Positions 12,387 to 39,436 of a DNA stretch of 64,000 bases are shown piece after piece. The notes below the pieces were generated by a model that saw only the letters and a list, made by a program, of their open reading frames with translations, did not search any database and was not told the DNA's origin. Origin of the DNA: an uncultured Clostridia bacterium (GTDB taxonomy: Bacteria > Bacillota > Clostridia > Oscillospirales > Acutalibacteraceae); contig CAMCPL010000004.1 of assembly GCA_945876745.1 (NCBI GenBank), forward strand, positions 1 to 64,000. Direction: 5' to 3'. The translations under genes were made by a program, and so were the position numbers. The first letter of the stretch is position 1; every line of letters starts with the position of its first letter.

Positions 12387-13331
12387 TCAGTATGAAAATT
12401 TGTGACCGTCACAGCGCTTGAGCAATTCGTCCCAACGTCTGTCAACCTCTTTTTGAAATTCTTCAATCATCCATTCGTTGCCCGACTTGAACATATGCTT
12501 AAATCTGCCCTGCTTTGAGAGCCATTCTTCGATAGGCACATACTTTCTCGGTTCGTAGTTGAGTATCCATTTGCCGTCAACGACCTCGAATAACGGCCAG
12601 TATCTCGTTTCAACCGCTAATTTGCAAATCTCCATAATGTTGTATGTAGGATATCTCCAGCCTCTCGGACACGGAGCCATAATGTTGAGAAAAGCCGCAC
12701 CTTTTGTATAGATTGCACGCTCACTCTTGCAATGTAAATCCTTGAAATTTTGTACAAAGGTGGTCTGTGCAACATACGGAATTTGATGCTCCGCAATGAT
12801 TGCCGCAAGGTCCTTTCTGTATTGCATTTTACCGGCAGATTCCTTGCCGACAGGCGTTGTAGTAGTATCTGCAAACATTGGAGTTGCCGAGCTTCTTTGA
12901 ATACCGGTGTTCATATATGCGCCGTTGTCGTAGCAAACGTAAACCATATCGTGATTACGCTCCATAGCGCCCGATAAAGATTGAAATCCTATATCGTATG
13001 TACCGCCGTCACCGCCGAAGGTGATGAACTTGAAGGTGTCGTCGATTTTGCCCTTTCTCTTTAATGCGTTATATGCGCCCTCAACGCCGCTGAGTGTTGC
13101 GCCGGCATTTTCAAATGCATTGTGAATATAGCTGTCCTTGTAGGCTGTGTAAGGGTACATAAATGTGCTAACCTCCAAACAGCCTGTTGCGTTGCCCACT
13201 ACTGCACGGTCGCCCTCGTGAAGCGCCTTTAGCACGTTTCTAACTGCGATTGTACCGCCGCAGCCCGCACACATTCTGTGACCGGGAGCAAGTCTGTCTT
13301 CTCTTGAAACATATTCCTTAAAGTTATACAT
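12387..13331 (-). CDS. porB: 2-Oxoacid:ferredoxin oxidoreductase, beta subunit (PorB type)
   Basis: A 314-residue thiamine-diphosphate-binding subunit. The N-terminal MCAGCGGTIAVRNVL carries the paired cysteines of the catalytic cluster. The ThDP/Mg motif is FGGDGGTYDIGFQSLSGA, with the downstream YDNGAYMNTGIQRS. Together with the alpha, gamma and delta subunits it oxidises, or in reverse makes, a 2-oxoacid using coenzyme A and ferredoxin. It is the last gene of the minus-strand operon. Annotation as pyruvate-specific is the default; the T-box leader argues for a branched-chain substrate. Confidence 0.92.
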   Translation of the reverse strand: MYNFKEYVSREDRLAPGHRMCAGCGGTIAVRNVLKALHEGDRAVVGNATGCLEVSTFMYPYTAYKDSYIHNAFENAGATLSGVEGAYNALKRKGKIDDTFKFITFGGDGGTYDIGFQSLSGAMERNHDMVYVCYDNGAYMNTGIQRSSATPMFADTTTTPVGKESAGKMQYRKDLAAIIAEHQIPYVAQTTFVQNFKDLHCKSERAIYTKGAAFLNIMAPCPRGWRYPTYNIMEICKLAVETRYWPLFEVVDGKWILNYEPRKYVPIEEWLSKQGRFKHMFKSGNEWMIEEFQKEVDRRWDELLKRCDGHKFSY

Positions 13332-13343
13332 ATTCGCCCCTCC

Positions 13344-14525
13344 TTACTCTCTGACGCCCATATATTTGTACGGCTCGTCAACCTTGCCTGTCTTAATTGC
13401 CTGCTCAAGCCAAGCATAAACCTCTTTCATATGCTTAACTCTTACGTCTCTGCCGCCCAAGCCGTAAACAATGTTCATAACAAGCGGAGAAAGACCGGCT
13501 CTGTAAAGCGATGTAGTAACATCTGCGCCGAGTGGTCCGCAGGTGTCGTTGTAGCTTTCGGTTCTGTCCATTACGGCAACCGCCTTGACGTTTTTAAGCG
13601 CCGATGCAATTTCGTCGGCAGGGAACGGTCTGAACAATCTAATCTTTATCATACCTACCTTTTTGCCCTGCTCGCGAAGCTCGTCAACAGCCTGCTTCGT
13701 TGTACCTGCCGCCGAGCCTATGATTACTACTGCCGCCTCGGCGTCGTCCATTCTGTATTCCTCGAATAAGCCGTAGCCTCTGCCTGTGAGCTTTCTGTAT
13801 TCCTCTGCAACGTCAAGCACAACCTGTTTTGAATTTTTAAGCGCTTGAGCCTGTGCTCTCTTTGCTTCAAAATAGTAATTTGTAACGCTGTAAGGACCTA
13901 CGTGCATTGGCATATCCTTGTTGAGAAGGTAATTTTCAGGCTCGTATTCTCCGACAAAATTTTTAACCTCCTCGTCCTCGTTGAGTACAATATTTTCAAC
14001 TGCGTGTGAGGTAATAAAGCCGTCCTGACAAATCATAACAGGGAGCTTAACATCCTTGTGCTCGCCGATTCTGTAAGCCATACAGAGATTGTCGTAAACC
14101 TCTTGATTGTTTTCTGCATAAATTTGAATCCAGCCTGCGTCTCTTGCACCCATGCTGTCGGAGTGGTCGCAGTTGATGTTGATAGGACCGCTGAGCGCAC
14201 GGTTTACAAGTGTTAATACACAGGGAAGTCTGTTTGAAGCCGCAAGATATAGCTCCTCCCACATAAGCGCCATACCTGCTGACGAGGTTGCGGTTACGCT
14301 TCTTGCGCCTGCCGCCTCGGCACCGATTACCGCAGACATAGCGGAATGCTCGCTTTCAACGGGAATGAACTCACTGTCAACCTTGCCGTCTGCAACAAGC
14401 TTTGAAAAATATTGCGGAATTTCTGTTGACGGAGTGATAGGGAATGCCGCCATAACATCGGGATTAATCTGTCTTAACGCCTCGGCAACCGCTTCGTTAC
14501 CGCTTAATCTGTCTCTTCTTGACAT
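13344..14525 (-). CDS. porA: 2-Oxoacid:ferredoxin oxidoreductase, alpha subunit (PorA type)
   Basis: A 393-residue alpha subunit with the pyrimidine-binding region: GNEAVAEALRQINPDVMAAFPITPSTEI near the start, ESEHSAMSAVIGAEAAGARSVTATSSAGMALM, and a C-terminal domain with MIKIRLFRPFP. It forms the ThDP active site together with the beta subunit. It sits between the ferredoxin-like delta gene (one base apart) and the beta gene (12 bases apart), in the order gamma-delta-alpha-beta usual for four-subunit enzymes. Whether the substrate is pyruvate or 2-ketoisovalerate/2-keto-3-methylvalerate cannot be decided from the protein alone. Confidence 0.92.
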   Translation of the reverse strand: MSRRDRLSGNEAVAEALRQINPDVMAAFPITPSTEIPQYFSKLVADGKVDSEFIPVESEHSAMSAVIGAEAAGARSVTATSSAGMALMWEELYLAASNRLPCVLTLVNRALSGPININCDHSDSMGARDAGWIQIYAENNQEVYDNLCMAYRIGEHKDVKLPVMICQDGFITSHAVENIVLNEDEEVKNFVGEYEPENYLLNKDMPMHVGPYSVTNYYFEAKRAQAQALKNSKQVVLDVAEEYRKLTGRGYGLFEEYRMDDAEAAVVIIGSAAGTTKQAVDELREQGKKVGMIKIRLFRPFPADEIASALKNVKAVAVMDRTESYNDTCGPLGADVTTSLYRAGLSPLVMNIVYGLGGRDVRVKHMKEVYAWLEQAIKTGKVDEPYKYMGVRE

Positions 14526-14526
14526 A

Positions 14527-14835
14527 TCAGTTCACTCCTTTCATTGTAATACATCCTGTCGGACAGGTCTTTGCGCATATTCCACAGCCCTTGCAGTGGT
14601 CAAAATCAATGGGTCCTCTTGCCTGCGTACCCGGCAAAACCGAAATACAGCTGTCCGGACAAACAGGAATACAAAGAAGACAATGAATACATTTTGTGTT
14701 ATCGAGTACCGGCTGAACTGTTGCCCATTCACCGGTCTTAAATTCCTTTGAGGTCATTTCGCCGTATATCTGCATACCCTCGGTTAAATCCTCCCACGAG
14801 CAATGCAGTCCAACCTTCTTCAAATCGCTTTTCAT
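14527..14835 (-). CDS. porD: 2-Oxoacid:ferredoxin oxidoreductase, delta subunit (2x[4Fe-4S] ferredoxin)
   Basis: A 102-residue subunit. Two classical CxxCxxCxxxC motifs occur in the C-terminal half: CIHCLLCIPVCPDSC and CKGCGICAKTCPTGC. They carry electrons from the ThDP site to ferredoxin. The N-terminal 45 residues (GMQIYGEMTSKEFKTGEW) are typical of the PorD subunit. The start overlaps the gamma gene stop by one base. The operon organisation and length are normal. Confidence 0.93.
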   Translation of the reverse strand: MKSDLKKVGLHCSWEDLTEGMQIYGEMTSKEFKTGEWATVQPVLDNTKCIHCLLCIPVCPDSCISVLPGTQARGPIDFDHCKGCGICAKTCPTGCITMKGVN

Positions 14836-15410
14836 TAGCCCTTTACCTCCTCAAATGCCATTTTAAGTGCGTTCATATTGCCCTCGATTACTTCGGGCTT
14901 TGAAGCAAATTTGTGCATAAACGAAGCTTCCATTTCTCTCAAAAATTCATCCTTTTCCATAACACCGCTGATTTTTATAGCCGCCGCAAGCATCGGAGTG
15001 TTAGGAAAGTATTTACCCAAGCAGCTGACCGAAACCTTTTTTGCGTCGATTGTATAAACCTTGCCGTCAAAGTCTCTTATTTCGTTTCTTACTTCTTCAG
15101 GCGAGCGTGAGGAGTTAACAACTACTGCGCCGCCGTCTTTAATGCCCTTTGCAACGTCAACGCTTTCAAGCAATCCTTCGTCAACGACGACAACAAAATT
15201 CGGATGATAAATGTTTGAGTGAACTCTGATTTCGTTATCGCCGATTCTGTTGTAGGCAGTAATCGGAGCACCCATTCTTTCAGGACCGTATTCAGGAAAG
15301 CCCTGAACGTATTTTCCTGTTTTGAACGCAACATCGGCAAGAAGCAAAGCGGCTGTTTTTGCACCCTGTCCGCCTCTGCCGTGCCAGCGAAATTCAACTA
15401 CATCTTTCAT
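14835..15410 (-). CDS. porC: 2-Oxoacid:ferredoxin oxidoreductase, gamma subunit (PorC type)
   Basis: A 191-residue gamma subunit of the coenzyme-A-binding type. The signature WHGRGGQGAKTAALLLADVAFKTGKYVQGFPEYGPERMGAP is at the N-terminus. It is the first gene of the minus-strand operon porC-porD-porA-porB. The ATG follows AGAGGG directly below the terminator stem of the T-box leader, so it is the gene exposed to that control. Nothing is missing compared with family members. Confidence 0.93.
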   Translation of the reverse strand: MKDVVEFRWHGRGGQGAKTAALLLADVAFKTGKYVQGFPEYGPERMGAPITAYNRIGDNEIRVHSNIYHPNFVVVVDEGLLESVDVAKGIKDGGAVVVNSSRSPEEVRNEIRDFDGKVYTIDAKKVSVSCLGKYFPNTPMLAAAIKISGVMEKDEFLREMEASFMHKFASKPEVIEGNMNALKMAFEEVKG

Positions 15411-15430
15411 ACTTTTCCCTCTTTCATAAA

Positions 15431-15706
15431 AAATAAAAATCCCTCAGCCTATATCAAGGCTAAGAGACGATAATTAACTGTTACCGCGGTACCACTCTTA
15501 TTCATCAAATAATGATGCGCTTCATACACTATTATGTACTATCCCGTTAACGGAGGAAACCGGACGAGCTTACGTTAATTTTCGGCACGCCTGCTCAGAG
15601 AGGATATCCCGTATTCGATTCTACTGTCTTTCACCGACCGACAGCTCTCTGAAAGAAAATTCATACGGACTTTGTTCTCATCAACGCATTTGCATTTTAC
15701 ATTTTT
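15431..15706 (-). promoter_or_regulatory. T-box riboswitch (tRNA-sensing leader) of the por operon
   Basis: Read on the minus strand, the leader contains all T-box landmarks in order. Stem I carries AGAGAGC and GGTGAAAG. The specifier region GGGATATCCTCTCTGAGC (15610-15593) follows, then the T-box AAGAGTGGTACCGCGG (15499-15484). Last comes a terminator stem, CTCTTAGCCT (15466-15457) with AGGCTGAGGG (15450-15441), and a T-rich tail. The alternative antiterminator pairs AAGAG with CTCTT around the tRNA-binding bulge TGGT. That bulge needs a tRNA ending ACCA, that is with discriminator base A. Placing the specifier six bases before the conserved GAGC gives ATC (15605-15603), isoleucine. The base after it is C rather than the usual purine, so the codon is tentative. 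Confidence 0.92.
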
Positions 15707-15710
15707 ACCT

Positions 15711-15739
15711 ATTATAATGACTAATTTCGAATTTGTCAA
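15711..15739 (-). promoter_or_regulatory. Promoter of the T-box/por operon
   Basis: On the minus strand, TTGACA (15739-15734), a 17-base spacer and TATAAT (15716-15711): a consensus sigma-A promoter. A strong promoter with downstream attenuation is the usual T-box arrangement. Confidence 0.9.
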
Positions 15740-38093: not shown

Positions 38094-38226
38094 TATTTAT
38101 CAAGAGTGATTGAGGGACAGGCCCTGTGAAATCACAGCAACCTGCTTTGTGTAAGGTGCTAATACCTGCGGTGCTACCGAATGATGAGCTTTCAGCATAC
38201 GGTTTGCCGTATGCTTTGTTTTTTAT
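38094..38226 (+). promoter_or_regulatory. SAM-I riboswitch (S-box) with intrinsic terminator
   Basis: The aptamer (about 38094-38190) shows the S-box core in order: TATCAAGAG, TGAGGGACAGGCCCTGTGAA, CAGCAACC, AAGGTGCTAATACCTGC and GAATGATGAGC. The expression platform is the terminator AGCATACGG (38194-38202) with CCGTATGCT (38207-38215) followed by a T-rich run. High S-adenosylmethionine would stabilise the aptamer and stop transcription of metK. Confidence 0.95.
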
Positions 38227-38257
38227 AATTTAGATTTTGATGAAAGAGGTAATGATT

Positions 38258-39436
38258 ATGTCGAAGTTTTTATTTACAAGCGAATCTGTTACAAAGGGAC
38301 ACCCCGACAAGATTTGTGACCAAATTTCCGACGCTATACTTGATGCAATGCTTGAGCAGGATCCAATGTCGAGAGTAGCCTGCGAAACAACCTGTACAAC
38401 AGGTCAGGTTATGGTTATGGGCGAAATTACAACAAAGGCACAGGTCGATATTAACGATATCGTTCGTAAAACGATTATTGATATCGGCTATGACAGCGCC
38501 GAAAAGGGCTTTAACGGCAATACCTGCGCAGTTTTGACTGCACTTGATAAGCAGTCTCCCGATATTGCAATGGGCGTTGATAAGTCATATGAATTAAAGA
38601 ATAATGAAAATGACGAGGATAACCTTAACGGTGCGGGCGACCAGGGTATGATGTTCGGTTATGCCTGTAACGAAACAAGCGAGCTTATGCCGCTTCCGAT
38701 TTCTCTTGCTCATAAGCTTGCAGTAAAACTTACCGAGGTTAGAGAGGACGGTACTCTCCCGTATCTTTATGCCGACGGTAAAACTCAGGTGACCGTTGAA
38801 TATGATGACGGCAAGCCGGTTAAGGTAACTACTGTTGTTGTTTCTTCACAGCATAGTGCAGATGTTGAGCTTGAACAGCTTAGACAGGATATTATCGAAA
38901 AGGTAATTAAGACAACCGTACCTTCCGAATTAATGGACGAGGATACAGTATTTTATGTAAATCCGACAGGCAGATTTGTTATCGGCGGTCCTATGGGCGA
39001 CTCCGGTCTTACAGGCAGGAAGATTATCGTTGATACATACGGCGGTTATGCCCGTCACGGCGGCGGTGCTTTCTCCGGTAAGGACCCGACAAAGGTTGAC
39101 CGTTCTGCCGCTTATGCCGCAAGATGGGTTGCAAAAAATATTGTTGCCGCAGGTCTTGCAGATAAGTGTGAGGTTGAGCTTGCTTATGCAATTGGTGTTG
39201 CAAAGCCGGTTTCGGTTATGGTTGATACCTTTGGTACAGGTAAAAAGTCGGACGACGAAATCAGCGAAATTGTAAATAAGGTGTTCGACCTTCGTCCGTC
39301 TGCAATTATCAAGACTCTCGATTTGAGAAGACCGATATATCAGGCTGTTGCCGCTTACGGTCATATGGGTAGGGAAGATCTCGGTGTTCCTTGGGAACAG
39401 CTCAACAAGGTTGACGAAATTAAAAAGTATATGTAA
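38258..39436 (+). CDS. metK: S-adenosylmethionine synthetase
   Basis: A 392-residue enzyme that joins ATP and methionine to make SAM. It shows [20 protein letters not shown] (His15 for ATP), the flexible-loop [62 protein letters not shown], and the C-terminal dimer region. I chose ATG 38258 (MSKFLF), eight bases after GAGGT; ATG 38240 and 38252 are less well placed. Controlled by the upstream SAM riboswitch. Closes with a bidirectional terminator. Confidence 0.97.

Follow-up and report, generated by a model that had tools for sequence, protein, structure and literature searches.

The T-box leader of porCDAB

We analysed a 64,000-nucleotide stretch of DNA, called the window throughout, from an uncultured Clostridia bacterium of the Acutalibacteraceae (assembly GCA_945876745.1, contig CAMCPL010000004.1, positions 1 to 64,000). 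The genome to which the window belongs is labelled G000, and its congeners are labelled G021, G149, G293 and G231. On the minus strand the window carries, in this order, a promoter, a T-box leader, an intrinsic terminator and the genes porC-porD-porA-porB. The region singled out in the original prediction, positions 14835 to 15739, covers porC and the leader, whereas the operon runs on to position 12387. The features of the locus are as follows:

15711..15739, minus strand: sigma-70-type promoter, TTGACA / 17 nt / TATAAT (from the sequence and the aligned leaders)
15593..15690, minus strand: T-box stem I, with lower helix, specifier loop, upper helix and apical part (from the covariance model and covariation)
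15603..15605, minus strand: specifier codon AUC (Ile; ATC in the DNA), from the covariance-model alignment and invariant in 12 of 12 leaders
15499-15484, minus strand: T-box sequence, AAGAGTGGTACCGCGG (from the sequence)
15462..15499, minus strand: antiterminator, including the T-box sequence (from the sequence, folds and aligned leaders)
15494-15491, minus strand: UGGU bulge, complementary to a tRNA that ends in ACCA (discriminator A)
15441..15466, minus strand: intrinsic terminator hairpin, whose 5' strand is common to the antiterminator
15440-15428, minus strand: T-rich run after the terminator hairpin (from the sequence)
14835..15410, minus strand: porC, gamma subunit, ATG at 15410 (TIGR02175, 211 bits, cut-off 81)
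14527..14835, minus strand: porD, delta (ferredoxin-like) subunit (TIGR02179, 83 bits, cut-off 60)
13344..14525, minus strand: porA, alpha subunit (PorA_Arch, 486 bits, cut-off 550; 2-ketoisovalerate alpha PRK08366, 334 bits, cut-off 646)
12387..13331, minus strand: porB, beta (TPP) subunit (PorB PRK11865, 346 bits; 3-methyl-2-oxobutanoate beta PRK11864, 294 bits; cut-off 405 for both)

The covariance-model search with the Rfam family RF00230 matched window positions 15693-15460 (minus strand) with 128.1 bits (E 4.3e-28; gathering score 93) over the full length of the model, from position 1 to position 219 of 219, and the match ended 49 nt before the start of porC. The leader is a complete transcriptional T-box, located at window positions 15435-15739 of the minus strand upstream of porCDAB, which bore out the full T-box with promoter, stem I and terminator that had been predicted there. 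The same T-box was found on at least 11 further por leaders, making 12 with that of the window: those of G021 and G149 (two of the 11 loci scanned in the family sample) and those of L081 to L087, L089 and L119. All of these carry AUC, as the comparison of T-box/por pairs in related genomes showed. All 12 leaders have TTGAC at the aligned position, together with an AT-rich -10-like element; the automatic promoter pattern picked the wrong site in L010 and L084.

The specifier loop reads UAUC, followed by a C or an A and then by the lower helix, in 12 of 12 leaders. This helix occurs as GAGA/UCUC, GGGA/UCCU, GGGA/UCCC or AAGA/UCUU, with changes on both sides in two of its four pairs and with 100% of its cells paired in the 12 aligned leaders. 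Since the lower helix covaries, it fixes the register, with AUC located 1 nt away. The Rfam model aligned the codon position to the same AUC, in agreement with the ATC isoleucine codon of the original prediction. When read by eye, the same codon place gave GUA (valS), UGC (cysE-cysS), ACC (thrS), CUC (leuA) and UGG (gene of an ABC substrate-binding protein) in other T-boxes of G000, and the UUC T-box of pheS fitted this register if an extra U-G pair was counted. The UGGU bulge, predicted as TGGT and found at 15494-15491, calls for a discriminator A, as found in tRNA-Ile; tRNA-Tyr likewise carries a discriminator A. A misreading of the specifier, with the T-box answering another tRNA such as tRNA-Tyr (UAU), is nevertheless most improbable: the other frame is also invariant (UAUC in all leaders), so that conservation fits UAU as well, and the discriminator of tRNA-Tyr is compatible with the bulge, but by our reading UAU stands 2 nt from the helix, instead of the 1 nt of the other T-boxes of G000, and it is rare as a specifier (PMC7778990). 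Passages of that paper on the TBDB count the specifier as positions 2-4 from the bulge end and report AUC in 99% of isoleucine T-boxes and UAU in 1% of tyrosine T-boxes. GAU (Asp) was ruled out as the specifier by the leaders of L009 and L010, which read GAUUAUC and GGGUAUC, respectively. With AUC in the canonical register, the leader of porCDAB is almost certainly an isoleucine T-box.

In all 12 leaders, the CTCTT that closes the antiterminator on its 3' side also opens the terminator hairpin as its 5' strand, and T follows the hairpin. The terminator hairpin folded in 12 of 12 single-sequence folds, while the canonical bulged antiterminator was the minimum-energy fold of the isolated stretch in only three (window, L010 and L119), the remaining stretches folding part of the bulge into a helix. 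The named structure of 27 pairs (stem I and antiterminator) consisted of standard pairs in 96.6% of 323 cells of the 12 aligned leaders, compared to a mean of 86.9 for the shuffled control, in which 0 of 500 were as high, and no slid version came close. Changes on both sides were seen in 14 of these 27 pairs; the antiterminator pairs were 100% standard, and the five outer ones never varied and are therefore uninformative on covariation. The terminator pairs were paired in 64.7% when counted on fixed columns, with a better count at a slide of -2, because loop lengths shift the columns. Stem I is kept by covariation, and the antiterminator with its UGGN bulge is exclusive with the terminator. 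This is the usual T-box geometry. Uncharged tRNA-Ile(GAU) would pair at two places, the AUC of stem I and the UGGU bulge, its binding would stabilise the antiterminator, and RNA polymerase would read into porCDAB; with charged tRNA-Ile, the terminator would stay in place. Induction of por under tRNA-Ile starvation would follow from this anatomy.

Distribution of the T-box leaders

Nine T-box leaders were detected among the best 80 loci of the genome scan, by a motif search and not by a covariance search, and with the exclusion of L117 and L147, which have only 20 and 79 nt of upstream DNA. Relatives of PorC with at least 68% identity were present in 5 of 300 family genomes, G000 counted, and G000 also has a separate single-chain PFOR (1195-residue frame); the rarity of these relatives and the presence of the separate PFOR indicate that por is an accessory enzyme.

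The tree of PorA and PorB comprised 72 of the 85 por loci, those with a long PorA and a long PorB, and took 10 of the 12 T-box rows; L083 and L089 were incomplete and were left out. The T-box rows formed one group (10/10, SH-aLRT 100), so that a single gain of the T-box by por would be the simplest history. Residues private to this clade, and found in 10 of 10 T-box rows, were S51 (a T in 64 of 64 other rows) and V66 of PorA, and R243 (a C in 62 of 62 others) and Y264 (a K in 62 of 62 others) of PorB. A83 and M85 of PorA were typical of the clade, yet were found elsewhere too. The motifs PITPST and AYMNTG were constant, and NRALSGPINI nearly constant, across the subfamily, so that substrates were not discriminated by active-site motifs.

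L146 is the sister of the T-box clade. An aspartate kinase gene is located upstream of its por and a gene for a FadX-like CoA-transferase (294 of 750 bits; L146:8094-9665), which possibly activates short fatty acids, is located downstream. An operon of aspartate kinase, por and CoA-transferase was ruled out by hairpin-like stretches with T runs seen by eye between the genes, which leaves this locus as a weak lead.

We compared the T-boxes of G000 with those of its congeners. G000 has seven T-box matches, of which one, the por leader, reads Ile, and the por-bearing congeners G021 and G149 have eight each, again with a single Ile T-box that stands on por. G293 and G231 are por-less in the sense that they have no close PorC relative. 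One of the seven T-boxes of G293 reads Ile (GAAAUCA) and precedes the gene of a branched-chain amino acid carrier (TIGR00796, 407 bits, cut-off 243); this T-box is L190 (C2:117645-117884, minus strand; GAAAUCAUCUC). None of the six T-boxes of G231 reads Ile. Three species thus have their Ile T-box on por, and a fourth has it on a transport gene. Because the only Ile T-box found is on por in G000, G021 and G149 and on the carrier in G293, por occupies the place where a gene of isoleucine transport or biosynthesis would stand.

Two other regulatory elements were seen in these genomes. L192 (G021) and L182 (G149) are T-boxes that seem by eye to read AAC (Asn) before an aspS-like gene, a combination that would fit a non-discriminating AspRS. 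The window has an ordinary SAM-I riboswitch at 38094-38190 (plus strand, 79.6 bits), before what is by eye a metK-like ORF at 38237-39436.

Substrate of the PorCDAB enzyme

PorC and PorD exceeded the NCBIfam cut-offs of the four-subunit POR/KOR family (TIGR02175 and TIGR02179), and the closest solved chains to the PorCDAB proteins by sequence were those of 9bt4. The scores fell short of the POR equivalog cut-offs for PorA (486 of 550 bits), PorB (346 of 405), PorC (192 of 270) and PorD (80 of 120), and also of the cut-offs of 2-oxoisovalerate:ferredoxin oxidoreductase (VOR) for the alpha (334 of 646), beta (294 of 405) and delta (68 of 166) subunits, the profile table holding no VOR-only model for PorC. 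PorA and PorB were nearer to the POR than to the VOR models (486 versus 334 bits and 346 versus 294 bits, respectively), while PorD was mixed, with 80 bits for PorD_Arch, 68 for VOR and 66 for the P. furiosus-type POR model.

In view of its leader, the PorCDAB enzyme very probably serves isoleucine supply. Control by an Ile T-box and a role in isoleucine supply imply that the enzyme would run in the reductive, carboxylating direction, and two acyl-CoA substrates fit the role of isoleucine precursor, namely propionyl-CoA and 2-methylbutyryl-CoA. If propionyl-CoA is the main substrate, it would be carboxylated to 2-oxobutyrate, which would enter the ordinary IlvB-IlvC-IlvD pathway, and environmental propionate would stand in for threonine as the isoleucine precursor. 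We give about even chances to 2-oxobutyrate being the main product, in which case the enzyme would have 2-oxobutyrate synthase activity (EC 1.2.7.2).

Relatives with a PorC 68-70% identical are linked to genes that yield 2-oxobutyrate. The gene order in G247 is ilvA (threonine ammonia-lyase; TIGR01127, 500 bits, cut-off 379), a RidA-like gene (124 aa, by eye) and porCDAB, and a second ilvA-like gene of this genome adjoins a TPP-enzyme (ilvB-like) gene. In G152 the order is a TIGR00835 carrier gene, a methionine-gamma-lyase-like gene, RidA (TIGR00004) and porCDAB, and in L097 and L109 a methionine-gamma-lyase-like gene ends about 30 nt before porC. In these contexts, oxidation of 2-oxobutyrate is the presumed reaction of the enzyme. 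The lyase-like genes scored below their cut-off (326, 509 and 500 versus 550 bits), so that they may form pyruvate. A 2-oxobutyrate-type neighbour was directly upstream of por in 4 of 82 loci, the upstream DNA being short in some, and the enzymes of G247 and G152 fell outside the T-box clade in the tree, which did not include L097 and L109.

G000 keeps ilvA, ilvD (TIGR00110, 772 of 618 bits) and thrC, all with profiles above the cut-off, as well as ilvB- and ilvC-family genes (an ilvB-like TPP enzyme gene and a KARI gene), so that a 2-oxobutyrate synthase would plug into an existing isoleucine pathway. With IlvA-RidA and ThrC encoded, G000 has an intact threonine route, to which the propionate route would be an addition and not a replacement. 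Replacement of a lost threonine route by por was rejected for G000 because thrC was found by TIGR00260 (270 bits); PF00291 gave no thrC-like match in G000, G021, G149 and G293. With TIGR00260, thrC was above the cut-off in 27 of 31 genomes and in 9 of the 12 T-box-por genomes, the exceptions being G302, G306 and G307 (T-box-por MAGs of unstated completeness) and G318.

Methylmalonyl-CoA mutase was found in 0 of 16 genomes, 12 of which have a T-box-por, so that propionyl-CoA would need propionate from outside. Endogenous formation of propionyl-CoA from succinate was rejected on this ground, and the mmdA-like / biotin-carrier-like / 5S-like cluster of G000 (C4, about 143.6-146.7 kb) is not its source: the mmdA-like gene reached 225 of 999 bits with mmdA and scored best with oxaloacetate decarboxylase alpha (757 of 718 bits). 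The citramalate route was also rejected, the two PF00682 genes of G000 being leuA (TIGR00970, 737 of 697 bits) and an oxaloacetate-decarboxylase-like gene. An ilvD-like gene located 12 nt upstream of the por of L131 was discounted as isoleucine evidence, its neighbours resembling hydroxy-acid catabolism by eye.

The original prediction favoured a VOR-type enzyme with 2-methylbutyryl-CoA as its substrate; the product of carboxylation, 3-methyl-2-oxovalerate, needs a single transamination to become isoleucine. The same T-box logic applies to this substrate, and one gene cluster would then make up the whole isoleucine-specific route, which suits an Ile T-box on por alone. According to passages of PMC2812497, which cites the 1969 work of Robinson and Allison with rumen bacteria, a methanogen of the rumen probably makes isoleucine by reductive carboxylation of 2-methylbutyrate. 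The record titles of some T-box loci mention goat reticulum (L086), 'Lapin' (L085) and horse faeces (L119). However, the profiles of PorA and PorB are nearer to POR, the neighbour genes of the relatives indicate 2-oxobutyrate, and G000 has the full ilv pathway, which a 2-methylbutyrate route would not need. The search for acyl-activating enzymes covered the acetate-kinase family in 16 genomes: 14 had one gene, another had two pieces and the last had none, and these unclassified matches gave no sign of an additional butyrate-kinase-like gene. A VOR identity with the 2-methylbutyryl-CoA route is possible, though less likely than not. The related claim that the operon is mis-labelled as pyruvate oxidoreductase is plausible under either substrate, given the separate single-chain PFOR.

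A broad 2-oxoacid oxidoreductase, or a true pyruvate synthase, is unlikely. Isoleucine starvation would in this case raise several 2-oxoacids, pyruvate and 2-oxobutyrate both feeding IlvB. The POR-like profiles agree with such an enzyme, and PFOR-type enzymes commonly accept 2-oxobutyrate, but G000 encodes a PFOR separately, and pyruvate would serve valine and leucine equally, yet AUC is present in 12 of 12 leaders.

Because of the gene contexts of the relatives and the POR-like profiles, 2-oxobutyrate synthase is slightly preferred over the 2-methylbutyryl-CoA route, the former being close to an even call and the latter somewhat less probable. The best explanation overall, about which we are evenly divided, is an Ile T-box over a second, four-subunit oxidoreductase that would make 2-oxobutyrate. 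More tentatively, one clade of Clostridia from the gut may have converted a POR into a carboxylase that responds to tRNA-Ile and is reserved for building isoleucine out of propionate taken from the environment, a by-pass induced by starvation and retained alongside the threonine route. If true, the ferredoxin-dependent conversion of propionate to 2-oxobutyrate, known for a long time, would thereby acquire both a gene and a regulatory switch.

Gut anaerobes have long been known to build amino-acid precursors by reductive carboxylation of short fatty acids, but the enzymes responsible are difficult to distinguish by sequence from pyruvate oxidoreductases. When a leader specifies an amino acid, it labels the enzyme independently with the amino acid that it serves, and a generic 'pyruvate:ferredoxin oxidoreductase' annotation thereby becomes a testable isoleucine enzyme. 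The T-box/por pairing brings an old enzymological question within reach of gene-level tests, and we suggest T-boxes as a general route to the biosynthetic members of the 2-oxoacid oxidoreductase superfamily.

Comparison with known systems

No paper that joins a T-box to a 2-oxoacid:ferredoxin oxidoreductase operon was among the matches listed for the main texts of open-licence PMC papers, and the word 'ferredoxin' had 0 occurrences in the main texts of the T-box papers PMC2494555, PMC3766115 and PMC7778990. PMC2700814 and PMC5171806 contain both T-box and ferredoxin-enzyme terms, in unrelated passages. In a table of PMC2700814, a paper on a Geobacter genome, the entry 'tryptophan (iorAB-paaK)' has a common upstream element, possibly a parallel case in which a different device brings a 2-oxoacid:ferredoxin oxidoreductase under the control of an amino acid.

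The leader has the same stem I, AUC codon, antiterminator/terminator switch and UGGU bulge as the Ile-class T-boxes (RF00230), which are found on ileS and on genes of branched-chain biosynthesis and transport, whereas the gene controlled here is a 2-oxoacid:ferredoxin oxidoreductase. The enzyme has the same four subunits and the PITPST, NRALSGPINI-like and AYMNTG motifs of the PorCDAB pyruvate synthase/POR, but it is under an Ile T-box, belongs to a clade of its own and scores below the equivalog cut-offs. It shares its superfamily and subunit plan with VOR, while its alpha and beta subunits score lower with the VOR than with the POR models and the delta subunit is mixed. The introduction of PMC7476758 cites the ferredoxin-dependent conversion of propionate to 2-ketobutyrate for several anaerobes, and this 2-oxobutyrate synthase activity, the same carboxylation of propionyl-CoA feeding isoleucine, is an activity of other organisms that is predicted here for the present enzyme. 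Each component, the isoleucine T-box, the four-subunit POR and the reductive carboxylation, has been described before; it is their combination that appears to be new.
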